Source: Enterobacter cloacae complex sp. ECNIH7
GTDB lineage: Bacteria > Pseudomonadota > Gammaproteobacteria > Enterobacterales > Enterobacteriaceae
DNA: 64,000 nt
Assembly (NCBI RefSeq): GCF_002208095.1
Contig: NZ_CP017991.1
Span: 80,026-144,025, forward strand
Reading direction: 5' to 3'
The notes under the pieces are model-generated. The model ran no database searches. It had not been told where the DNA came from and saw only the letters and a program-made list of their open reading frames with translations. The translations under genes and the position numbers were made by a program. Shown one piece after another: positions 36,392 to 54,912 of the stretch (position 1 is its first letter; every line of letters starts with the position of its first letter).

Positions 36392-37123
36392 TCAGCCGTT
36401 AACCACTTTGTGGTGCAGTTTGTTTGGAACCTGCCAGCGCTCGGCATCCCGGATATGTTCCGGTGTCTCCCGGACGATAAACGGGATTTCATACATCACC
36501 GCATACAGCGGTTCACCGCTCAGGCGCAGCCAGTTCATTTCTTTCAGCGACGCGAACCGCGTCTGCCAGCGCCAGAATGCGCCCGCCAGCTCCCCCGCGT
36601 CGAACTCGTCGCTCCACCGGGTATACCAGGTGCAGACGGTTTCCGGGGACTGAAAGTTGAGGTCGGTTTCAGCCTGCGCGAGCAGGTTCTGGCGCAACTT
36701 CCAGCGCTGGTCGAATTCACGGGATTCGCGGCGTATCTGTCGGGTGGTCTGGATACCCGCCCTGTGCAGTCTTCTGCCCGTGCGGGTGTGCATGACTTCG
36801 GGGAACAGTTCGGCCTGTACGTCCAGCGTGAGCGGCAGCGGGCAGGCTTCTCCTCCCGTGGCAATCATCGTGTCCAGCGCTTCCTCGACCTGTTTCAGGT
36901 TCGAATGGCGGTTCTTTGGCACCCAGTTCAGACCCGGGATCTGACGTGCGACAGTGGCATTCAGGCGACCGCTGCCCGTGAGCACCCGCAGAAAGGTGCG
37001 CACATACGGCATGGCGGGCAGTCGGGAGCCGCGTTCGCGGGCGGACTCCACCTGGCTGATAGCCTGAATCGCGGCCTGACGGGCAGGTTTCAGGGAGACA
37101 AGGGCATGGGATGACGGGATCAT
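36392..37123 (-). CDS. psiA: PsiA leading-region protein
   Basis: 243 aa, located directly downstream of psiB with an ATGA overlap, as in F. It shows the family pattern: an N-terminal RQAAIQAI-type segment, PLPLTLDVQAELFPEV, then a basic helical region with repeated Arg. Co-expressed with PsiB on entry; its own biochemical role is not settled. Confidence 0.85.
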   Translation of the reverse strand: MIPSSHALVSLKPARQAAIQAISQVESARERGSRLPAMPYVRTFLRVLTGSGRLNATVARQIPGLNWVPKNRHSNLKQVEEALDTMIATGGEACPLPLTLDVQAELFPEVMHTRTGRRLHRAGIQTTRQIRRESREFDQRWKLRQNLLAQAETDLNFQSPETVCTWYTRWSDEFDAGELAGAFWRWQTRFASLKEMNWLRLSGEPLYAVMYEIPFIVRETPEHIRDAERWQVPNKLHHKVVNG

Positions 37124-37554
37124 GCTGTCACCTCCCCGCTCATCAGGTTTGCCACGGTACTCGCCGTGCAGTTAAACCGGCGCATCCCTGCCATCTGGTC
37201 GATCAGCTGGCTGACCCGCTCAGGCTGGAGCGTCTCATTCTGGTACAGGGTGCGCACTATGGAGCCACCCGAAGAAAGCAGAACCAGAAGCCAGTACGGC
37301 GACACTTCACCAGGACTGCACACGCACAGGTGCCAGTCATCACTGTTATCCGCGCTGAAACGGCACCGTACCGGGAAAAAGCCGCCAAATTCACTGCGGT
37401 ACTCGGCGCAGACGCGCCAGTCCTGCGGGACAGTCAGCAGGCCGGTCACGGTATCGCTGAGGGCGCGGCGCGCTTCCTCGCCCTGCTGGCGGATAAACTC
37501 CAGATCGGAGGCAGTCAGGGTGTTGATTCGGGTCAGATCGTAATTCATGGTCAT
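37120..37554 (-). CDS. psiB: PsiB SOS-inhibition protein
   Basis: Binds RecA and prevents SOS induction when single-stranded plasmid DNA enters. It is 144 aa, the F PsiB length. Conserved parts are EYRSEFGGFFPVRCRF and LCVCSPGEVSPYWLLVLLSSGG. Start at ATG 37554 or at 37548 six bases later. Its SOS-blocking role matters here because umuDC and the bacteriocin both carry LexA boxes. Confidence 0.92.
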   Translation of the reverse strand: MTMNYDLTRINTLTASDLEFIRQQGEEARRALSDTVTGLLTVPQDWRVCAEYRSEFGGFFPVRCRFSADNSDDWHLCVCSPGEVSPYWLLVLLSSGGSIVRTLYQNETLQPERVSQLIDQMAGMRRFNCTASTVANLMSGEVTA

Positions 37555-37591
37555 GCGTGTTCCCGCCGCCCGAAGGCGGCGGCCTCCGGTT

Positions 37592-39607
37592 TTATGCAGC
37601 GTGGTCAGTGGTGGTGTCGGTATGGGTATCCGTTGCTTCGTCGGTCTGAACCGCTGGCGCAGGACGCACCATCCAGTCTGGCAGCCAGCCCTGAGCATTC
37701 AGATCCTGTTCAGCGGCCTTTGCCGCATCGCGGCGCTTGAGCTTCACAACCTCCCCCGCACGGGCACTCAGTCCGGCTGCTTCATATGCCTTGCCAATCT
37801 GGGTAATCGTGAGTTTACCGAAGTAGCTCTCAGCATCAGGCTGCCACCATTTGCGCAAATCAAAGTCCAGCGCCGCTTCCAGCCCGTCCAGTGAACTGAT
37901 AGCCGTGTGGTTGTAAAGACGCTCCTGTAGCCCGTCGATACCGTGCGCCGCACAGAATCCCAGCAGGGTGTTCACCTGCTCTGCTGACCATGACAGCAGC
38001 CAGGTGAAATCGAGGTGCCAGTTTTCAGGCAGCGTTGCCTGAAACGCCTTTTTCTGCGCATTCAGCGCCGTCAGCGCTTTCCCTTCCTCACCGGAAGGAG
38101 CCAGTGATGCAAGGTGATACTGATTCGAGGACACAGAGGCTTTCAGCGGTTCGCTGCGTTTACCGTAGCTGCGGTCAAACATACTGAGGCACAGTGTCCA
38201 CGTCAGGAGCGCCACCGACACATCGGGGCGATCCGCCAGTTCGGCCTGAACGGCGAGCGTGCGCTCGGCGGACATGGCCTTTACCAGCGTAGCCGGATAG
38301 GCGTCAGCGGGAATTTCAGGTGTGGTGTGTCTGATAACGTTATTCTCACGCTCCTGACGAACCTGTTCTTCTGCTGCCCTGTTTTCGTCGGTCAGTCTGC
38401 GGATACCTGGCTGAACCTGAAAACTGTCACCGTCCCATGACACCCAGACACCGTGCGCGGCGCGAAATTCCGGCGTGGCTTCGCGGTAAGTCGCCTCGGT
38501 GTAGATATCATCTATATCCTGCTGACACTCATATTCATCATCGTGGGTTTCAGTGGCTTCCATTTTCTCTTCCAGCTCACTGACGCGCTTCTCTTCTTCT
38601 TTCGTCAGCACAGCATTCGGCATGGCAAAGCGGTACTGCTCCCTGTCCTCGCCGCTGCCGCGCAGCTCCGTCATACGGAATTCAGACCAGCCCCAGCCCT
38701 GCTCCTGCTGAAGGCGGGCGGCAAGCACGGTGAGTTTTCCTGCCAGCAGGGATTTCACCATCGCGGCATCGGCAAAGGTGCTGTCCTTATCGCTGAACAG
38801 ATCGGCTGTCAGCGTACCGCCAGCGGCGGTATAGGTTTCCTCGCCCACATACGCAAACATCGGGTGGCTGATGGCCATCTTGTCGTCAGTCACCATTTTG
38901 CGCAGGGTCTGTACAGAAGGATCACGCCACTTTTCCACGGCCTCTTTCCAGACCTGTTCCTGACGTTCATGGGTGTCCGCCAGCGTCAGCACTTCACACT
39001 GTTCAAGGGAGATGTTATCCCGCGCCAGCGCGTCCAGCAGGGAGGGCGCAAGGTTCGCCAGTTTCAGGCAGCGCTGGACGTGGCGTGGGTGGTAGCCCAT
39101 CAGTGCGCCAATCTGCGAGGCGGTTTTGCCTTCCTGCTCAAGGGTGCGAAAACCGATAATCTGCTCAGCAGGGTGCATGTTCTTACGTCTGCCGTTCTCA
39201 ATCATCGAGGCTGCCACCGCCATCTCCACGGGCAGGACTTTCACCGGAACAAACGGGGTTTCTGCATCGAGCACACCGCGCAGCACCAGAATGCCCGTCC
39301 CCCTGCGACGACCTTCCCCGCCGACAATGCCGATCGTGCCGTCCGGCAGCTCTGCTCCAATCAGGTTTTGCAGGATACCCATTGCCTCAATGCTGTCTGC
39401 CATCTCTTCCACTTCCTGATCGGTATGCGGAATGATGCGCGTGTTTAAGTCAGTGCGTGACAGGCGGGAGTACGGGAAGATTTGCACGGGCGTGTCAGCG
39501 AGCATCTGGACAAGCTTCTGCTCGGTGGATTGCACGATTTTTTCCGCTGACTTTTTAGCGCGGTTGGATTTCGCGGGTGTCTTTGCCGTAGTATTGGTGG
39601 CGACCAT
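37592..39607 (-). CDS. Large ParB-domain leading-region protein
   Basis: 671 aa. The N-terminal ParB/Spo0J nuclease-like domain (IFPYSRLSRTDLNTRIIPH, MGILQNLIGAELPDGTIGIVGGEGRR) is followed by a helix-turn-helix (TASQIGALMGYHPRHVQRCLKLANLAP). A long unique C-terminal region follows. It corresponds to the ParB-like gene (YubM type) upstream of psiB in F-like leading regions. It is not the partition ParB, since sopB is separate. Role on entry unknown. Confidence 0.85.
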   Translation of the reverse strand: MVATNTTAKTPAKSNRAKKSAEKIVQSTEQKLVQMLADTPVQIFPYSRLSRTDLNTRIIPHTDQEVEEMADSIEAMGILQNLIGAELPDGTIGIVGGEGRRRGTGILVLRGVLDAETPFVPVKVLPVEMAVAASMIENGRRKNMHPAEQIIGFRTLEQEGKTASQIGALMGYHPRHVQRCLKLANLAPSLLDALARDNISLEQCEVLTLADTHERQEQVWKEAVEKWRDPSVQTLRKMVTDDKMAISHPMFAYVGEETYTAAGGTLTADLFSDKDSTFADAAMVKSLLAGKLTVLAARLQQEQGWGWSEFRMTELRGSGEDREQYRFAMPNAVLTKEEEKRVSELEEKMEATETHDDEYECQQDIDDIYTEATYREATPEFRAAHGVWVSWDGDSFQVQPGIRRLTDENRAAEEQVRQERENNVIRHTTPEIPADAYPATLVKAMSAERTLAVQAELADRPDVSVALLTWTLCLSMFDRSYGKRSEPLKASVSSNQYHLASLAPSGEEGKALTALNAQKKAFQATLPENWHLDFTWLLSWSAEQVNTLLGFCAAHGIDGLQERLYNHTAISSLDGLEAALDFDLRKWWQPDAESYFGKLTITQIGKAYEAAGLSARAGEVVKLKRRDAAKAAEQDLNAQGWLPDWMVRPAPAVQTDEATDTHTDTTTDHAA

Positions 39608-39674
39608 GATTTTTACCTCTCAGTGATTGTTATGGTTCGCCGTGGCCGGAATGCACTCCGGTCACGGCACTCGG

Positions 39675-40040
39675 TTAACCGGTGATGCGTTTCGGGTGTG
39701 CAGCCAGTGCCGCAAATGACGGATAACCATCCAGCACCTGCATCATGACTTTCGCACTTTCCAGCATCGCGGTATCAGATACCGTGGCGCGGTTTTCACA
39801 CACGGAAATCGTTGCCACGATCCCCGATTTCACATCTGAAAAACGCTCATACGTGCGGTTGCTGAACAGGACGCGCTTGCCCTCAGCCATAACCTGCCAG
39901 TTGTTGCAGTCATTAAAACGGGTGTCCACGTTGTCAAACTCGACCACATGGGTGTCGCTGGCCTGAATGCGCAGCAGCTTCACAATGTCATTACTCTGTC
40001 CTACTTTTTTGCCCGACTGGCCGGAATTAAGGTTCTGCAT
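39675..40040 (-). CDS. Unrecognised leading-region protein, 121 aa
   Basis: Soluble protein (VKLLRIQASDTHVVEFDNVDTRFNDCNNWQVMAEGKRVLFSNRTYERFSDVKSGIVATISVC). A good AGGAGAA site lies upstream. It sits between the ParB-like gene and the 90-aa gene in the same direction. No domain recognised. Confidence 0.65.
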   Translation of the reverse strand: MQNLNSGQSGKKVGQSNDIVKLLRIQASDTHVVEFDNVDTRFNDCNNWQVMAEGKRVLFSNRTYERFSDVKSGIVATISVCENRATVSDTAMLESAKVMMQVLDGYPSFAALAAHPKRITG

Positions 40041-40084
40041 GGGTTTCTCCTTCTGTGGGTTAAGGCCGGATGTCCGGCCTCCGG

Positions 40085-40357
40085 TTACAGCTGCACGTCT
40101 TTCAGGTTACGTTTCAGATCAAACACAAAATCCGGTTCAAACGACCACGCGCGCCAGTTGAGCAGTCCGTGAGTGCGGATCTCCACCTGAATATCTCCGT
40201 AGCGGTTCACGTCTGACAGCGTGACAGTCACGCCCGCTTTCAGCGAGGTGGCCTGTGCCACGCATTCACGGGCGATCGCAACCGTGTTCTGCCCTTCCCC
40301 CATCTTCCTGGAAGATTCTTGAGCGGCGGTTTTGACGTTGACGTTTCGTGTGTGCAT
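40085..40357 (-). CDS. Unrecognised leading-region protein, 90 aa
   Basis: Starts MHTRNVNVKTAAQES inside repeat copy B, the same N-terminal peptide as the 97-aa product. After residue 15 the sequence is unrelated (GQNTVAIARECVAQATSLKAGVTVTLSDVNRYGDIQVEIRTH). The product is a small mixed fold. It is the first gene downstream of copy B, so it would be the first expressed from that element. Confidence 0.65.
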   Translation of the reverse strand: MHTRNVNVKTAAQESSRKMGEGQNTVAIARECVAQATSLKAGVTVTLSDVNRYGDIQVEIRTHGLLNWRAWSFEPDFVFDLKRNLKDVQL

Positions 40358-40845
40358 CCTGGTTTTCTCCTGTGGTGATGGTTGTCCATCTCCCTGGTGA
40401 GTTCTCTCGCGGCAAAGGGCAAAGGGAGCAACGGCGAAGGGAGGAAGGAAAGGGGCGCTGACGAAAGTTTTTGCGGCCTTTCGCAAAAAGTTTTGGCGGC
40501 GTTTATTTCACCCCTTGTATGACGACCCGGCGGTGCTACAAGCAGCCCTCCGCGTGAGGACACACGGGGGATGGCCTCACCGGATGAACAGGATACACAC
40601 ACCCGACACGTCGGAACGGCGTGGCGACATTAAAGCGACGGCTCCGCCGGCGCGGTGAAGGCGTTCCGGACGGTACGGCCGGAGAAGCCGTAGCCCCTGA
40701 CCTCAGCCATCAGACCCTAGCGAAGCCCGAAACCCGAAGGGGTTCGGCGGAGACTGGCTGGTGCGAAGCAGCTGCCTGGCGGAGTGGGGCTCGACGACCG
40801 GACGGCGCAGCTGGCCGGGAGCCGAAGGGGGCCATCGCCCTGCCC
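40313..40845. repeat. Structured leading-region repeat, copy B
   Basis: Same sequence as 34632-35164 with no difference seen, followed by diverged similarity through the operator palindrome (40938-40971) into the truncated gene at 40986. It lies upstream of the 90-aa, 121-aa, ParB-like, psiB and psiA genes. Confidence 0.7.
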
Positions 40846-40985
40846 GTTTTTATCGTTCTGGCCATCCTGGTGAAGCTGGCTGATATCGCTGTGATTTGAC
40901 CGGAAATCTGGCCCGGTATGATTTGAGAACGGTCACTATTAATGCTAATGTACGCATCCATTAGCATTAATGAACGGTGCATGAA

Positions 40986-41177
40986 ATGGCTGAAGAAACC
41001 CAGACAGAACAGTCAGGGGCCTATTTTTACCGCAATTTTACGTACACCCGCGAACACCTTGCCAGAGATTACCAGGCAGAAGTGCAGCTTTATTCTTATG
41101 ATTCCCGGGAATACCCTCAGCGGGCAGCCCGTCTCTCCGCTCCACTCGCGCAGTGTTCATGTGTTGCTCTCTTTTGA
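40986..41177 (+). pseudogene. Truncated copy of the 162-aa gene
   Basis: The first ~50 codons (MAEETQTEQSGAYFYRNFTY onward) match the gene at 35305-35793. Similarity stops abruptly near 41132, after PQRAARLS, and the frame runs into unrelated sequence. The break marks the left edge of the AT-richer bacteriocin cassette. Confidence 0.75.
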
Positions 41178-41379
41178 CTGCTGCGCCATATGCATTATCT
41201 CGCGTCGCAGCACATAAACATCTGAAATCATTGCCTCCTCGTTAGCGGGTGAACTATGGGGCTTGAGTAGGCATTATAATCAGCAGAATTGCAGTGCTTC
41301 GATACCATAAAAATAGTTTTTTTTTAAAAAAAACCGAGTACATTTAAAGGCTCACAGCCTAAGAAAAGAAGCAGATCGA

Positions 41380-42018
41380 ATGAAACGTTTTTTATGTGTT
41401 GCCAGCGCATTTCTTTTTAGTTCGACGGTGTTTGCCTCGAACGAACTTGAGATAAATGGATTGCCCTTAACACTAGTATTGAATGATAACAATATTGCAA
41501 AGGTTTCTTCATGTTCTGATTTCATCTCATTACGCAAATCAGGTGAAACAGTAAAAAACATCCTTGATATTTCTGAACCAGATTATGACCAGGCAAAAGC
41601 TGCCCTAACTGATTGTTATATAAATGCCTATGCAATCCAAAACGGACTGGTTAAAAAAGACGCACCTGCACCATCGTTAAGTGACTTATTGAAGCATTTC
41701 CCAGCTTCTGAAAAATTGATTGTCAGTGATAATGAAAAAGAAGAGGTGCAAAAAAAATTCAATGGTAAAAGCATATGGGATACCTCACCGGACTTTATGA
41801 TGAAAGGTGATGTTTTACAATCTCAGAGTGACGATACAGGATACAGGTTAATATCCTACAGTACATATTCAAATAGAGATGGAAAAGATTTTAATATTGT
41901 AACCATAGCTGCGTTTACGTTACACGGGACATACGGGATCAGAAATAGCTACATCATTAAATATAAAGAGGAAAAGATATGGGAAATACAAAAGGTTGAT
42001 GAAAATAGCCCACTTTAA
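41380..42018 (+). CDS. Secreted protein, probable bacteriocin immunity
   Basis: 212 aa with a clear signal peptide (MKRFLCVASAFLFSSTVFA), so probably periplasmic. The mature part is AT-rich in codon use, with Cys in VSSCSDF and LTDCYIN and no membrane anchor. It is convergent with the lysozyme-domain bacteriocin and shares its terminator. A periplasmic location is what an inhibitor of a peptidoglycan-cutting toxin needs (compare the pesticin immunity protein). I recognise no family, so the role is inferred. Confidence 0.6.
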   Translation: MKRFLCVASAFLFSSTVFASNELEINGLPLTLVLNDNNIAKVSSCSDFISLRKSGETVKNILDISEPDYDQAKAALTDCYINAYAIQNGLVKKDAPAPSLSDLLKHFPASEKLIVSDNEKEEVQKKFNGKSIWDTSPDFMMKGDVLQSQSDDTGYRLISYSTYSNRDGKDFNIVTIAAFTLHGTYGIRNSYIIKYKEEKIWEIQKVDENSPL

Positions 42019-42022
42019 TGAT

Positions 42023-42044
42023 ATGGCCACATCCCTGTGGCCAT
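42023..42044. terminator. Bidirectional terminator of the bacteriocin cassette
   Basis: Perfect 9-bp stem ATGGCCACA / TGTGGCCAT with loop TCCC between the two convergent stops. A modest T-rich tract follows on the plus strand. Confidence 0.75.
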
Positions 42045-42061
42045 TAGCTTTATTAAACTAA

Positions 42062-42814
42062 TTACTTATCAGAAAGAAGCTGGTCATGCGTATCTTTATT
42101 ACGCGGATTTCGACTGTCATCTAAACCAGTTCTGTGGGACTCAACCGCAGCAGTAGGCCAATCACCACGGTTTACAGCAGCGTTGAAATTAGGGAAGTTT
42201 GATTTTAATTTTGGAATGCCAATGTTAAATCCCATGTCGACTAGAGCTACTTTTCTGTCATTAGAAAATGCATCATAACCTGTATAAAGACTACGTAGTC
42301 CAGTCTCTGTTATCTGGACATCTTTGATACACTCCGATATGACAGCATCATTTGTAAGATGGATATTTGGAATTGCAGAAGAATCCGTTGCATATTTATT
42401 AAATGCGGCTTTGATATCTCCAGCAGAGACAGCTTTATCAATATCTTCGGCATTCCCATGCCCCTGATTAATAGTAGCGGTCTTCTTAAATGGTAATGCA
42501 GCAGCCATCTCAGCAGTAGCTAATAAATGACCAACGCCGACGGTAATATTACCACCGGTATCCTTATACATTTTATTCTTAAAACCCTCATGTTTTTTAA
42601 GATTATTGACACACATACTCATCAGAACACCGTTGTATTCCTTTGTTGTGGGAATATCGATTTTCGCGCTATCGCCAATCCCATCGTGACCATTGCCAGC
42701 ATTACCACCAGTTCCGCCGCTAGAATTGTCTCCATCGTAGCTATGAATTGTACCGTATGGGGTATCATGGTCGTTCCAGCCAGGACCCTGGTTTGAAGTT
42801 TCTATACTGCTCAT
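42062..42814 (-). CDS. Lysozyme-domain colicin-like bacteriocin
   Basis: 250 aa. Residues 1-50 are Gly/Asn/Ser-rich and disordered, with a TolB-box-like motif GPGW-x5-PYG-x2-H (residues 10-24), comparable to GSGW...NPW...IHW of nuclease colicins. Residues about 65-250 are a T4-type lysozyme domain with Glu76, Asp85 and Thr91 in KHEGFKNKMYKDTGGNITVGVGH, the same spacing as T4 Glu11, Asp20, Thr26. No receptor-binding domain separates the two. An AGAGGA site precedes the ATG and a LexA box lies 43 bp upstream, typical of colicins. No lysis gene is seen. It could also be a secreted effector lysozyme, but the box and N-terminus favour bacteriocin. Confidence 0.75.
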   Translation of the reverse strand: MSSIETSNQGPGWNDHDTPYGTIHSYDGDNSSGGTGGNAGNGHDGIGDSAKIDIPTTKEYNGVLMSMCVNNLKKHEGFKNKMYKDTGGNITVGVGHLLATAEMAAALPFKKTATINQGHGNAEDIDKAVSAGDIKAAFNKYATDSSAIPNIHLTNDAVISECIKDVQITETGLRSLYTGYDAFSNDRKVALVDMGFNIGIPKLKSNFPNFNAAVNRGDWPTAAVESHRTGLDDSRNPRNKDTHDQLLSDK

Positions 42815-42856
42815 AAAATTCCTCTTTGACGTTCATTAAAATCAACAATAAAACAA

Positions 42857-42872
42857 CTGTATATACATACAG
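42857..42872 (-). promoter_or_regulatory. LexA (SOS) box of the bacteriocin gene
   Basis: CTGTATATACATACAG fits the LexA consensus CTGT-N8-ACAG with the usual AT-rich centre. It lies 43-58 bp upstream of the bacteriocin start, so production should rise on DNA damage. Confidence 0.88.
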
Positions 42873-42973
42873 TCACACAACCTTACGCCCATCATAACCA
42901 TGCAGTCAATAAGCTTTTTTAACTATTCCGCTTTTTTTTAGCAGGTACCAATAGCGGTCGAACTGGCGTAGTA

Positions 42974-45661: not shown

Positions 45662-47161
45662 ATGGCGACTTCTGTATTGGCTAACTGGCACGGTCATGAT
45701 TATCAGGCTCGGTATTTCTGGATTGAGGCTTCTCGGCTTAAAAATCCCCAACAAGATTTCGTCGTAGAAGTTTCCTATGAAGCCGATGGCCCTAAAGCCT
45801 TTGATGACGTGATTACGCGTTATAATCCCCCCCGCCGCAGCACCGGGCCCGATCGGATTCAGGCGGATTACTATCAAATTAAGTTTCACGTAACACAAGC
45901 CGCTAGCTTCGGATTCGAGGACCTGATTGACCCTGCATTCATTGGTGCTGAAACCTTCTCGATCCTTGAAAGGCTAAAACAGGCAAAAGGAACTGAGCCT
46001 GCCAACTCTGCTTTTCACCTTGTCACGACAGATCGAATTATCGATGAGGACCCGCTTGGTGAAATAATCAGTAATGTGGATGGCTCAATACGACTCGATA
46101 AGTTGTTTGATGGCACGACCGACAGGAGCCGTAAGGGAAAGGTTCGCAAGCTTTGGCGCCAACATCTTAAGCTTTCCACAGACCAGGAGCTGGAGCAGGT
46201 GCTTTCTGGTTTTCACATTCAGCAGTCACAGCCCACGCTTGAAGCGATGCGCGAAAAAGTTAATACCTGCTTCCAGATCATTGGCTTGATAACCTGCGAA
46301 ACAAGTTCGGACTTCCGTTTCGATGGCGCTGCGCGAGCATTACGCAGTCAGGAACGTTATCGTTTTACCCGAGAGCAGTTCAAAGCCCTTTGCGTGGAAG
46401 AGAACTGGATCAGATCGGAAGCACCTGAAATCTTCAGAAATGTTGCGCTACGCTCTTTCAGCGATGGGCCACTGGACATCATGGATGCGCTTCCGGAACA
46501 CACACTCTCCCTGCTTTCTCTCTTCGAAGGTCGATTTCCCTCCCCAGGCATTGAGTGGAATGATGTTATTAAGCCCCAAGTAGAAACCTTCCTCACAAGT
46601 ATAAGGCAGACGGAGCGTAAAGTTCGGCTGTATCTAAATACCCACAGCTCCATTGCAATGCTTGCTGGCAAATGTCTTGGTCACAAGTCAGGCGTAGAAA
46701 TCGAACTGGTCCAGAAAGGGAGAATGGGCGACTCTATCTGGTCTGAGAACGAATCGCAGGATGAACCTGATGCGGTTATCGAAACCGAGACTGTCGGAAC
46801 CGGAAGCGATGTCGCTGTAGTACTCAGCATCGCGAGAAATGCGCTGCCAAAAGCGCGCGCATACATACTCGAAAATCAGCCTGACATAGGACGTATCATT
46901 CACGTAACCCCCGCAAACGGGCACGGGCAACGATCTGTGAAAAACGGTTCACATGCCGTAGCGCTTGCCGAACAGGTATCCGATGTAGTCACGAATGCAG
47001 ATTTACCGGTTGAGGCAAGCCTGCATATTTTCAGCGCTGCGCCAAATGCCGTTAATTTTTATCTTGGCCAGCACACCGATTTTCTGGGGACATGCGTCTT
47101 TTACGAGTTTGACTTTCAACGCCAACGAGATGGCTCCTACCTTCCTTCATTTAAGGTTTAA
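45662..47161 (+). CDS. cap4: Cap4: CBASS effector nuclease with SAVED domain
   Basis: DNA endonuclease that degrades DNA when its SAVED domain binds the cyclic oligonucleotide made by CdnD. It is 499 aa. The N-terminal DUF4297-type nuclease has a PD-(D/E)xK core with Asp49/Asp50 and Gln72-Ile-Lys74 (ADYYQIKF). The C-terminal SAVED domain covers about residues 220-499 (SSIAMLAGKCLGHKSGVEI, DVAVVLSIAR, LHIFSAAPNAVNFYLGQ). From memory it is very close to E. cloacae Cap4. It is the first gene of the operon, 5 bp before cdnD. Confidence 0.93.
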   Translation: MATSVLANWHGHDYQARYFWIEASRLKNPQQDFVVEVSYEADGPKAFDDVITRYNPPRRSTGPDRIQADYYQIKFHVTQAASFGFEDLIDPAFIGAETFSILERLKQAKGTEPANSAFHLVTTDRIIDEDPLGEIISNVDGSIRLDKLFDGTTDRSRKGKVRKLWRQHLKLSTDQELEQVLSGFHIQQSQPTLEAMREKVNTCFQIIGLITCETSSDFRFDGAARALRSQERYRFTREQFKALCVEENWIRSEAPEIFRNVALRSFSDGPLDIMDALPEHTLSLLSLFEGRFPSPGIEWNDVIKPQVETFLTSIRQTERKVRLYLNTHSSIAMLAGKCLGHKSGVEIELVQKGRMGDSIWSENESQDEPDAVIETETVGTGSDVAVVLSIARNALPKARAYILENQPDIGRIIHVTPANGHGQRSVKNGSHAVALAEQVSDVVTNADLPVEASLHIFSAAPNAVNFYLGQHTDFLGTCVFYEFDFQRQRDGSYLPSFKV

Positions 47162-47166
47162 TCACC

Positions 47167-48312
47167 ATGGAACTTCAACCTCAGTTCAACGAATTTTTAG
47201 CAAATATCAGGCCGACTGATACACAGAAGGAAGACTGGAAAAGTGGTGCAAGGACACTGCGCGAGCGCCTGAAAAATTTCGAACCGCTCAAGGGAATTGT
47301 CGTATCAACGTTCCTGCAGGGCAGCATTCGTCGTTCGACGGCAATCCGTCCGCTCGGTGATAAGCGCCCTGATGTTGATATTGTCGTAGTGACCAATCTT
47401 GACCATACCCGGATGTCTCCCACTGATGCAATGGACCTGTTCATCCCATTCCTCGACAAGTATTACCCGGGTAAATGGGAAACACAGGGGCGCTCTTTTG
47501 GAATTACCCTCTCCTATGTCGAACTGGACCTAGTGATCACCGCCATCCCAGAGTCAGGGGCAGAAAAAAGCCATCTTGAGCAGCTCTATAAGTCAGAGTC
47601 AGTTCTGACTGTTAACTCTCTGGAAGAGCAAACTGACTGGCGCCTGAATAAAAGCTGGTCCCCCAATACGGGATGGTTGTCTGAGAGCAATAGTGCGCAG
47701 GTAGAGGACGCCCCAGCTTCAGAATGGAAAGCGCACCCGTTAGTGCTACCTGACAGGGAAAAAAATGAGTGGGGCCGGACGCATCCTCTCGCGCAGATCA
47801 GATGGACCGCTGAGAAAAACCGCGTTTGCAACGGTCACTACATCAACCTTGTCAGGGCGGTCAAATGGTGGCGACAGCAGAACAGCGAAAACCTGCCGAA
47901 ATACCCTAAAGGCTATCCGCTGGAACATCTGATTGGTAACGCTCTGGATAATGGAACCACCTCAATGGGCAAAGGTCTGGTTCAGATGTTGGACACTTTT
48001 TTGTGCCGTTGGGCAGACATTTACAGCCAGAAAGGTAAGCCTTGTTTGCCAGATCACGGCGTTGACGAACATGACGTGATGGCGCGCTTATCAACAGACG
48101 ATTTCTGTTCATTTTATGAGGGTATTGCGGGTGCGGCGGAAATTGCCCGTAACGCGCTGGCGTCTCAGGATCCTCAGGAAAGTGCAGAACTCTGGCGCCA
48201 ACTGTTCGGAGCCAAGTTTCCTTTACCCGGTCCTAATGGCGGCGATCGCAATGGTGGATTTACAGTGCCAAGTAAACCAGCAGAACCACAGAAAACCGGG
48301 CGCTTCGCTTGA
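47167..48312 (+). CDS. cdnD: CdnD: CD-NTase second-messenger synthase
   Basis: Cyclic nucleotide synthase of CBASS. It is 381 aa. Nucleotidyltransferase core: Gly52-Ser53 in QGSIRRST, Asp69-x-Asp71 and Asp121 (YVELDLVI). It looks nearly identical to the E. cloacae CdnD that makes the cyclic trinucleotide 3'3'3'-cAAG. The C-terminal tail ends KTGRFA, the segment that Cap2 joins to target proteins to prime the enzyme. The cap2 start overlaps its stop. Confidence 0.95.
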   Translation: MELQPQFNEFLANIRPTDTQKEDWKSGARTLRERLKNFEPLKGIVVSTFLQGSIRRSTAIRPLGDKRPDVDIVVVTNLDHTRMSPTDAMDLFIPFLDKYYPGKWETQGRSFGITLSYVELDLVITAIPESGAEKSHLEQLYKSESVLTVNSLEEQTDWRLNKSWSPNTGWLSESNSAQVEDAPASEWKAHPLVLPDREKNEWGRTHPLAQIRWTAEKNRVCNGHYINLVRAVKWWRQQNSENLPKYPKGYPLEHLIGNALDNGTTSMGKGLVQMLDTFLCRWADIYSQKGKPCLPDHGVDEHDVMARLSTDDFCSFYEGIAGAAEIARNALASQDPQESAELWRQLFGAKFPLPGPNGGDRNGGFTVPSKPAEPQKTGRFA

Positions 48313-50111
48313 GTACAGTCGTTCAGCAGGTGCCAAGAGAGCTGCGGGCAGCGTTCACCCTTATCAATAATGATCCCAGGATGCAGACGAACAATGCCTG
48401 GGCGCTCTCTGCTGACAATAGATGGTCGCTTAAATTCACCGCCGGGCTTTCCGTACCCTGCTCCAGGTTCATGCCAGACAACAGCGTCTGGCATCTGGTC
48501 CTCTGGCAGGAAGGGGCTCAGACTCGCATAGAGGTCTATCCCGATAAATCGGAAGGTATATCTGCAACGTTTCAGCACCAAAACTACAACTTTTCGGATG
48601 CGTCTATCCGCGGATGGACATCAGGAAATCCGTGCCTTGAGAATACGCCCGCCGCATTTGGTCGTAACTTATGGGGGCAGGAACCCGAAGCATTACTCGA
48701 CAGAATCAGCTGGCGACTCAGCAGGTTGCTGCTCTGGATTGACGCCGCTGCACAGGGAAAACTGGCCACAACCGGGGATGCTGTTGAACTCCCCGCCTTC
48801 CCCGGTCAGTCACCCTTTACCGTGATCGGTTTTAGCGAACAGACTGATGATCTCCCTTTCTGGGAATCGAAAACAGGAGAATGGGGGTTTGCAAGCAGCA
48901 CTGGATTGCCCGGTGCGCGCGGTACCCGCTTTTTGCGTGAGTTTTTTGATAACAAAGGAAAGCTAATCCGGACAACTAAATGGTCCCCTTTCATGCGCAA
49001 AAGCGCGAGAACAACGAACGCAGTGTGGTCTGTTTTGCCTACCCTCCCCGTTCTGCCTCCTTGGCAGGCACCCAGGACCTGGCAGGAGCTCAGCCATTGC
49101 TTCGCACAATGGGGGTTATCACTGCCGGACCTCTTTTCAGATATTGGGCGTTCTGTCAGAGCCCTGCGCAAGCAACGCGCGCCCGAATTACTCTTGCTGG
49201 GTTTTCCGCTGGAAAACAAAATTGGAGATGAACCAGCGCGCATTCACTGGCTGGCGCTGAGTCTGGCCGGTCTCAGTAATACAATGACAAAACGCCCCGG
49301 ATTCCGCCCAACGGAACGGAATCGCAGAGCCTGGGATCGCGAACAGCCGCTTTCACGCGAGCCCATCAGGTGGGTGAGGACGCAGAACTGGGCGGCCGAC
49401 CAGCTCAGAACACGTGGCGAAGCAGCCAACGACATTCGCAGCAAAAAGGTGCTGATAATCGGTGCAGGCTCACTGGGTAGCATGATTGCAGAAAACCTGA
49501 TGCGCATGGGTGTTATCAGCCAGGGCATTCTGGACGCAGACCTCCTACAGACCGGAAATCTGAGCCGTCACGCCCTGACAATGACGTCAGTTGGCCATAA
49601 CAAAGCGGCCGCGCTGGTTGAACATCTGAATCGTATTCTGCCTGACGCAAGTGCACGTTCATTCAGCTGCGCGTTTCCCCCTGAGAGTGAGGTCGCAAAA
49701 CACTCACTGCGTCAGTACGACGTGATCATTGATTGTACCGGTGATGATGGTGTTCTTAAGTCATTGGCGGCATTTGACTGGCAAAGTGAAAAAATATTTA
49801 TCAGCCTGGCTATGACATGGCGGGCTGAAGGTTTATTTGCGTTTGCTGCCAGTGAAACAACGTTTCCGGTGACGGATGCTTCCAGCCGCTTCGAAGCCTC
49901 GGCGTCACCTGAGATCGAGATGGATGAGGCGAGAATAGAAGGCATCGGGTGCTGGCATCCTGTATTTCCGGCCCGTGCCGATGACGTACAGCTATGGGCA
50001 GCCGTCGGTACAAAATTCATTTGCCGGGTGGTCAGTGCGCCAGGGAGAATTTATGAATATTTTAAGCAGATGCCTGATGGCACCGTCGAGAGAGAGCCGC
50101 ATGAGCATTAA
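48309..50111 (+). CDS. cap2: Cap2: CBASS E1-E2 fusion
   Basis: Ubiquitin-transfer-like enzyme that conjugates the CdnD C-terminus and raises its activity. It is 600 aa from a TTG start in a TTGA overlap. The N-terminal E2-like domain has the probable catalytic Cys109 (SGNPCLENTP). The C-terminal E1/ThiF domain has the nucleotide loop VLIIGAGSLGSMIAENLMRMGV and catalytic Cys548 (GIGCWHPVFP). Both cysteine positions agree with the E. cloacae enzyme. All required residues appear intact. Confidence 0.93.
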   Translation: MSTVVQQVPRELRAAFTLINNDPRMQTNNAWALSADNRWSLKFTAGLSVPCSRFMPDNSVWHLVLWQEGAQTRIEVYPDKSEGISATFQHQNYNFSDASIRGWTSGNPCLENTPAAFGRNLWGQEPEALLDRISWRLSRLLLWIDAAAQGKLATTGDAVELPAFPGQSPFTVIGFSEQTDDLPFWESKTGEWGFASSTGLPGARGTRFLREFFDNKGKLIRTTKWSPFMRKSARTTNAVWSVLPTLPVLPPWQAPRTWQELSHCFAQWGLSLPDLFSDIGRSVRALRKQRAPELLLLGFPLENKIGDEPARIHWLALSLAGLSNTMTKRPGFRPTERNRRAWDREQPLSREPIRWVRTQNWAADQLRTRGEAANDIRSKKVLIIGAGSLGSMIAENLMRMGVISQGILDADLLQTGNLSRHALTMTSVGHNKAAALVEHLNRILPDASARSFSCAFPPESEVAKHSLRQYDVIIDCTGDDGVLKSLAAFDWQSEKIFISLAMTWRAEGLFAFAASETTFPVTDASSRFEASASPEIEMDEARIEGIGCWHPVFPARADDVQLWAAVGTKFICRVVSAPGRIYEYFKQMPDGTVEREPHEH

Positions 50112-53150: not shown

Positions 53151-53170
53151 TCTTTGCCTGGTTAAATATA

Positions 53171-53186
53171 CTGTATACATATACAG
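53171..53186 (+). promoter_or_regulatory. LexA (SOS) box of umuDC
   Basis: CTGTATACATATACAG, a near-perfect LexA palindrome, 23 bp upstream of the umuD start. Confidence 0.92.
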
Positions 53187-53209
53187 TTTTTTTTTAGTCG
53201 GAAGGTAAT

Positions 53210-53641
53210 ATGAAGCTGCAGCTTTTTAGCCCCGGGACAGATACCCCGCCACAGACCCATCCGTTTTTCGCCGATCTGGCCAGCTGCGGGTTCCCGAGCC
53301 CTGCCGGCGATTACATTCTGTCAGATCTGGATCTGCATGAGTACTGTATACGCCATCCGAGCGCGACTTATTACCTCAGAGCCAGCGGAGACAGCATGGC
53401 TGACGGCAGCCTTTACAACGGCGATCTGCTGGTTGTGGACAGTGCGGAGAAACCCCGGCACGGCGATATCGTTGTGGCCAGCGTGCAGGGGGAATTTACG
53501 GTCAAACGGCTCCTGCTGACGCCACGACTGACACTGCAGCCCATGAACGCCACCTGGTCCCCCATCTATCCTGACACGGACGAACTGGACATCTTTGGCG
53601 TCGTCACGCACATCATCCACCGTCCCAGGGAGATGTACTGA
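53210..53641 (+). CDS. umuD: UmuD-like error-prone repair subunit
   Basis: Subunit of translesion polymerase V, active after RecA-stimulated self-cleavage. It is 143 aa. Cleavage site Cys-Gly in [10 protein letters not shown]; catalytic Ser in [10 protein letters not shown] and Lys in FTVKRLLL. Plasmid copies (ImpA, MucA, RumA types) give mutagenic DNA repair. Stop and umuC start overlap. Confidence 0.93.
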
Positions 53642-54912
53642 TGTTTGCCCTGGCCGATGTGAACAGCTTCTATGCCAGCTGTGAACGTGTTTTCCGCCCG
53701 GATTTAAAAGGGAAACCCATTGTCTGCCTTAGCAACAATGACGGCTGCGTGATCGCGAGAAGTGCCGAAGCGAAGCCCTGGATTAAAATGGGGACCCCGT
53801 GGTTCCAGATAAAGAACGAGATTTACCCGGAAAAAATATACGCATTTTCAAGTAATTATGAGCTTTACGCCTCAATGTCAGCGCGCGTGATGAGCTGCCT
53901 CGAGGAGCTGGCGCCGAGGGTGGAACAATATTCGATTGACGAGATGTTCCTCGATCTGAGCGGTGTGTCGCATTGCATGGACCTGGAAGACTTTGGCCGG
54001 CAGCTGCGCCAGCACGTGTATGACTGTACCCGCCTGACCATCGGCGTGGGGGCTGGACCTACGAAAACGTTGGCAAAATCAGCTCAGTGGGCCTCCAAAG
54101 AGTGGAAACAGTTCCGGGGCGTGCTGGCCCTGACGCGGGATAATCCTCAGCGAACCCGTAAACTGCTGTCACTTCAGCCGGTCGAAGAGATCCGGGGCGT
54201 GGGAAATCGCATTGCACGCAAGCTTAATGTACTGGGTATCAGGACCGCACTTGATCTGGCCCTGACGAACCCGGCCTTCATCCGGAAAAATTTCTCCGTG
54301 GTTCTCGAGCGAACGGTGCGCGAACTGAACGGGGAAAGCTGCATGTCGCTTGAGGAATCACCACCAACGAAACAACAGATTGTCTGTAGTCGCAGCTTTG
54401 GCGAGAAGATCACGGAGTACGATTCGCTCCGCCAGGCTGTCTGTCAGTACGCAGAACGGGCCGCTGAAAAACTGCGTCAGGAGCACCAGTATTGCCGGCA
54501 CATTTCCGTTTTCGTCAAAACGTCTCCGTTCGCCGTTAAAGAGCCTTATTACGGCAATGTGGCCACGGAGAAACTGCTTACCCCCACTCAGGACACCCGG
54601 GACATTATTGCGGCCGCCACAACGGCTTTGGAGCGCATCTGGAAGGATGGCCACCGGTATGCCAAAGCCGGAGTGATGCTGAATGACTTTACAGGCTCAG
54701 GTGTTTCGCAGTTGCAGCTGTTCGACGAACGGCCACCACGTCCTCACAGCGCTGAGCTGATGAAGGTTCTTGATGGTATTAACCATTCCGGCCTGGGACA
54801 TGTCTGGTTTGCCGGACGAGGAATTGCACCTTCCTGGCAAATGAAACGCAATATGCTGTCCCCTGCGTACACCACCTGCTGGAAAGATATCCCCATCGCG
54901 AGGATCAGTTAA
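53641..54912 (+). CDS. umuC: UmuC-like Y-family DNA polymerase
   Basis: Catalytic subunit of polymerase V. It is 423 aa, usual length. N-terminal [14 protein letters not shown] with the first Asp; [12 protein letters not shown] with the catalytic Asp-Glu; helix-hairpin-helix [20 protein letters not shown]. The C-terminal region ends [10 protein letters not shown] plus a tail. It appears intact. Confidence 0.95.

Follow-up and report, generated by a model that had tools for sequence, protein, structure and literature searches.

Pesticin enters its target cells by way of a separate receptor domain and TonB. Both pesticin (PMC6993521) and the telocin TelB of Klebsiella telomere phages (WP_110096654.1; PMC12042878) have been described as bacteriocins with a T4-lysozyme-type warhead; thus, T4-type lysozymes do serve as bacteriocin warheads. 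Colicin Z, a peptidoglycan-degrading colicin carried on a small plasmid with a single SOS box and a convergent immunity gene, illustrates that a protein of only 237 aa can act in this way, and it needs CjrBC and ExbBD, not tolA, tolB, or tolQ (PMC6668396). Short disordered entry domains also have a precedent in colicin N, a pore former with a central domain, for which killing by a 90-residue disordered domain is described as needing OmpF and TolA alone (PMC3739937); for colicin E9, porin threading and TolB capture have been described (PMC8561637). Colicins A and S4 belong to the Tol-dependent group A (PMC9517006) and are pore formers with receptor and pore-forming domains. Cloacin DF13, an rRNase bacteriocin encoded on plasmid CloDF13 (L062), has 561 aa, which include a receptor part and an rRNase part, and its immunity and lysis genes lie behind it.

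We analysed a 64-kb stretch of plasmid DNA from a gut bacterium, referred to here as the window, in which a colicin-type tail is joined directly to a T4-type lysozyme and a gene for a secreted protein converges on the toxin gene. The encoded toxin is very probably a bacteriocin, and the locus as a whole is quite probably a two-part colicin-type cassette, with a Tol-imported tail, a lysozyme, and an exported immunity protein. The features of the locus are listed in the table.

Features of the putative bacteriocin cassette (positions within the 64-kb window)
Feature	Position	Strand	Description
Toxin gene	42062..42814	-	250 aa, 26.7 kDa; colicin-type tail plus T4-type lysozyme
Lysozyme domain	42065..42643	-	residues 58-250
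Catalytic codons	42587-42589; 42560-42562; 42542-42544	-	E76; D85; T91 of the lysozyme domain
Gly-rich tail	42665..42814	-	residues 1-50; mostly low pLDDT; homologous by sequence to cloacin DF13 residues 43-93
Tail core motif	42731..42793	-	NQGPGWNDHDTPYGTIHSYDG, residues 8-28
Ribosome-binding site	42820..42825	-	AGAGGA, of the toxin gene
LexA box	42855..42874	not assigned	40 bp before the toxin start codon
Convergent gene	41380..42018	+	212-aa signal-peptide protein; probable periplasmic immunity protein
Partner signal peptide	41380..41436	+	residues 1-19; charged start, hydrophobic core, VFA end (by eye)
Intergenic hairpin	42023..42044	not assigned	9 bp, between the convergent genes; terminator-like

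The sole Pfam match of the window toxin was Phage_lysozyme (E up to 1). A structure model and an alignment revealed a T4-lysozyme-type fold in which E76, D85, and T91 are all kept, in agreement with an earlier note, made from the letters alone, that had proposed a T4-type lysozyme with these residues. The note had also suggested a structural check against pesticin and T4 lysozyme; the T4-type fold was recovered, but Pfam Pesticin (PF16754) did not match the window toxin at E up to 1, and it matched 10 of 36 relatives only weakly (best 1.3e-4). Neither did the ColM lipid II hydrolase domain of the colicin M family (PF14859) match the window toxin. In the predicted structure, the enzyme domain is confident (by pLDDT) from about residue 51-58, directly behind the tail, and there is no separate receptor-binding domain; as anticipated, 50 residues of tail followed straight away by the enzyme leave no room for one. 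The window toxin thus has a warhead type in common with pesticin and with TelB, the latter likened by its description, but in place of pesticin's folded receptor-binding domain with a TonB box it has only a short, mostly low-confidence tail. It differs likewise from cloacin DF13, in having the lysozyme directly after the tail, and from the multidomain pore formers A and S4. In the records that we opened, related genes were annotated as hypothetical proteins or generic glycoside hydrolase.

The N-terminus had been likened to the TolB box of nuclease colicins, and this comparison held in part. The TolB box has been published as DG(S/T)GWSSE, and colicin A is reported to become inactive when D11, T13, W15, or E18 is lost (PMC2821528). 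The window tail has QGPGWNDH in place of this canonical box and keeps only the Trp of colicin A's four essential residues, although the spacing to a Pro-aromatic pair is that of colicin E9 (GPGWNDHDTPY in the window versus GSGWSSENNPW in E9). What stood is that the tail is of colicin type, in the version found in cloacin DF13. A profile of 14 tails, hand-picked among the window-type members, scored 27.2 bits against cloacin DF13 residues 40-85, and none of 5,000 shuffled cloacin N-termini matched this score, the highest reaching 9.0 bits. Aligned with cloacin residues 43-93, the window tail had 23 identities in 51 columns (0 of 2,000 shuffles were as good), and the tail of a Serratia member had 31 in 49. 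Cloacin was not reported by phmmer with the single window tail as query, and the 14-tail profile had no match among solved structures up to E 10. On sequence grounds, we conclude that the window tail and the disordered segment at the N-terminus of cloacin DF13 are homologous; no such homology to colicin N was found. A search of the literature yielded no mapping of a TolB box in cloacin DF13. Thomas and Valvano (1993) reportedly studied tol genes and cloacin DF13.

The earlier note had called for a search for homologues with the same N-terminus. Window-type tails were indeed found in relatives, and the same lysozyme also follows tails of colicins A and S4, neither of which is the window's own type. 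MPGFNYGGHGDGTGWSSERG, with which colicins A, Y, and R begin, precedes the lysozyme on plasmids of ~4.7 kb from E. albertii and E. coli (L056 and others). The canonical TolB box is exact in L056 and nearly so in P0034, both of which have a colicin A tail, and for a Lonsdalea member the hit was the peptide of colicin A from a crystal structure with TolB (3iax, E 0.0018). The P0028 tail matches colicin S4 (3few, E 1e-4), the P0024 tail does so weakly (E 0.006), and P0026, P0027, and L004 show the same pattern as the S4-type tails. Two further types remain: the P0012 type (YYHIEITGG), with no match to solved structures or plasmids, and the P0040 type (GFGHMGPNDPY), with no match among solved structures. 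As a lead only, YYHIEIT resembles SYHITF, described as the TolA-binding strand of colicin N (PMC4339652).

To follow these tails on the lysozyme domain, we used an alignment of the window with 35 of 49 relatives (14 were omitted, P0001 as near-identical and others as partial or distant) and built a tree from 35 of its 36 rows, leaving out P0033 with its broken tail, plus seven locus proteins. The 42 rows comprised 28 cloacin-type, five S4-type, four GFGHM, two HIEIT, and two colicin A-type tails and one other. Seven changes of tail type were needed on this tree, where the least possible number is five; well-supported branches force at least two changes for the S4 type, at least two for the HIEIT type, and five for the cloacin type. 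Of all the evidence, these repeated swaps between tails of Tol-type colicins argue most strongly for an import function of the tail and for the protein being a bacteriocin. Together, the relatives and the window toxin have the look of Tol-type lysozyme colicins that lack a receptor domain and whose tails are exchangeable, and Tol dependence of the window toxin itself is likely. A Kosakonia locus (L006, 2971-3711) has the enzyme with a degenerate tail that lacks GxGW, without a LexA box or a recognised immunity gene.

The same bacteriocin might instead bind its receptor through a patch on the enzyme domain, for example an extra beta-hairpin at residues 110-128, with the tail as an energy link only, to Tol here and perhaps to Ton in some relatives. 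The model does show a hairpin (110-116/122-128), which T4 lysozyme is not known to have; conservation at its tip, H119-G120, is 90% or more, and two of the tail types were not traced to any known colicin. However, conservation of the tip would be explained just as well by a function for the enzyme or for the immunity protein, and colicin N, as described, enters by way of its disordered domain with OmpF and TolA alone (PMC3739937). We consider receptor binding by the enzyme unlikely and favor a tail that serves for both docking and import.

The near-perfect LexA box that had been noticed upstream of the toxin gene has an intact CTGT-N8-ACAG core. Two LexA-like sites, defined by at most three mismatches to the 20-bp consensus, occur in the window, with none expected from shuffled sequence, which supports an SOS-type promoter. 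The second site, with two mismatches, precedes a plasmid umuD, with umuC next (window 53169-54912), and this umuDC pair serves as a positive control for the scan. At 16 loci of relatives we found seven boxes with a perfect core, two with a core one position off, two with a degraded left half, and five loci with none; these loci are not independent, because L002 and L053, and likewise L003 and L055, apparently carry the same cassette. A single SOS box is reported for klebicins C and D as well as for colicin Z (PMC6668396).

The toxin had been described as minimal. Its two-part layout stands, but it is not a stand-alone gene, as the convergent gene for a secreted protein belongs to the cassette: in 25 of 26 plasmid records, this secreted partner adjoins the lysozyme gene in convergent orientation. 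Residues 1-19 of the partner have low pLDDT, and the protein is modelled as a soluble alpha/beta protein, with no convincing match of the model to known folds. The 212-aa partner is likely a periplasmic immunity protein, and we infer that it would protect the producer. The arrangement resembles that of colicin Z, but the colicin Z immunity protein is described as a four-TM membrane protein without a signal peptide, whereas the window partner, judged by eye, starts with a signal peptide and its model is soluble; nor did we find a lysozyme domain reported for colicin Z (PMC6668396). In K. grimontii an orphan immunity gene occurs, with the lysozyme absent from the 7 kb read, and HlyD-type adaptors and ABC transporter parts lie near it (L076, 3139-7001). 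Export genes of the same kinds are also found upstream of a Rahnella cassette (L059, 342-3443).

A profile search detected no Lysis_col gene in the toxin's own genome. The 14 control genomes were also blank in this search; plasmids known to have the gene were detected, with the cloacin record as positive control. Small Col plasmids of E. coli, Klebsiella, and Raoultella (L053, 4.7 kb; L054, 3.9 kb; L055, 3.9 kb) carry, on the same strand, the lysozyme gene, then a different secreted ORF (~160-180 aa), and then a colicin lysis gene, matched by Lysis_col in L053 and L054 at E 7e-19 and 4e-17 and present in L055 too. This is the usual colicin order. The L003 genome also has a colicin lysis gene; in L052 the second secreted ORF is present and a lysis gene was not detected. 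Cassettes of the window type, with the convergent partner, likewise gave no lysis gene in the L056, L057, L060, L058, L059, and L078 records. On a K. michiganensis plasmid, a second bacteriocin-like gene with Pyocin_S and Colicin_D matches lies upstream of the lysozyme gene (L058, 1753-3420).

These observations bear on a rival reading, in which the lysozyme would be of intracellular or phage type and would work within the producer cell itself, as an endolysin or as a release protein. The Pfam name and the T4-type fold would suit such a role, and prophage lysis genes likewise fit SOS control. Set against this are the colicin tails and their exchange, the linked secreted partner, and the separate lysis gene behind relatives. 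Moreover, although 669 records in a phage collection matched the toxin, none did so over more than 80% of the protein and all were below 60% identity; the 30 matches listed were T4-like lysozymes, endolysins, and tail lysozymes. With no close relatives in this phage collection, we rejected a phage endolysin, and we consider action within the producer extremely improbable compared with a role as a bacteriocin.

We then asked how widely the cassette is distributed. The lysozyme profile (E up to 1e-20) matched 10 of 394 Enterobacterales genomes, including the toxin's own; the other nine, more distant relatives of the enzyme domain, matched from query position 41 or later, and the N-termini that were read showed no colicin tail (L064-L072). 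One of them, L065, starts with another kind of domain and is followed immediately by an ORF of 247 aa. The immunity family was found in one of the 394 genomes, again the toxin's own. In E. coli, a p1303_5-type cassette (at least 80% held) was present in 11 of 5,426 genomes and the colicin A-tail type in 1 of 5,426. Most cassettes seen were plasmid-borne, and sets with one genome per species under-sample plasmids. A count of 234 plasmid records at first suggested that the family is widespread in Escherichia and Shigella, but most of this came from a short fragment (residues 52-105 or less), to which 41 of the 60 rows listed belonged; the lysozyme part alone as query found 74 records. Lysozyme-family fragments lie on resistance plasmids, near sul2, aph(3'')-Ib, and tet(A) in S. 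sonnei pKKTET7 (L077, 4501-4674) and near sul2 in L061 (3019-3474).

Such remnants, the K. grimontii orphan immunity gene among them, and the failure to detect a lysis gene in the toxin's own genome would also fit a former cassette that is no longer a working weapon and is kept, if at all, for its immunity gene. In the window, however, the toxin gene has kept an intact reading frame, start, ribosome-binding site, and LexA box as well as its catalytic residues, and Enterobacter has an intact toxin on four other plasmids, with 99.6-100% identity on two of them and 93.7% on the remaining two. Decay of the cassette is very unlikely in our view. It lies among psiA, psiB, ParB-like, and antirestriction genes (window 36392-42814; names from a near-identical E. 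kobei record), and this gene set is a leading-region neighbourhood of an F-type plasmid. The window also contains a CBASS-type anti-phage operon with a SAVED-nuclease effector, an oligonucleotide cyclase, and an E1-E2 (ThiF) protein (45662-50111; PADLOC, Pfam).

For the window toxin, we infer release, Tol use, porin docking, killing, and immunity as follows. DNA damage would lift LexA repression, and the 26.7-kDa protein would be made and released from the producer. On meeting a related cell, its disordered 50-residue tail would dock at the outer membrane, with threading through a porin as the most likely route, and would hook the Tol-Pal machinery, whose force would draw the lysozyme into the periplasm; a separate receptor-binding domain would play no part. 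There the enzyme would cleave peptidoglycan and the target cell would burst, while in the producer's periplasm the Sec-exported product of the convergent gene would inhibit the lysozyme.

A pesticin-like warhead and colicin-type import are each of known kinds. The tail-plus-lysozyme layout without a receptor domain appears to be new, and it comes with two uncharacterised probable immunity families; in keeping with the earlier note, whose author knew of no described example, we found no description of such a colicin in the open-access literature. Whether the relatives make up an unnamed colicin class seems to us evenly balanced. In such a class, one lysozyme warhead would combine with interchangeable Tol/porin-docking tails (cloacin, A, S4, and two further types), the tail alone would decide binding and import, and at least two Sec-exported immunity families would occur, the 212-aa one being a lysozyme inhibitor whose fold has so far no solved representative.

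The cassette bears on the question of how much of a colicin suffices for crossing the outer membrane. With a 50-residue tail on a folded enzyme, and at least three recognisable tail types for one warhead, it offers a ready-made natural experiment on whether the receptor and the Tol or Ton route are set by the tail alone. The system further provides a natural example in which a lysozyme apparently reaches Gram-negative peptidoglycan from outside, accompanied by two uncharacterised families of probable periplasmic inhibitors.
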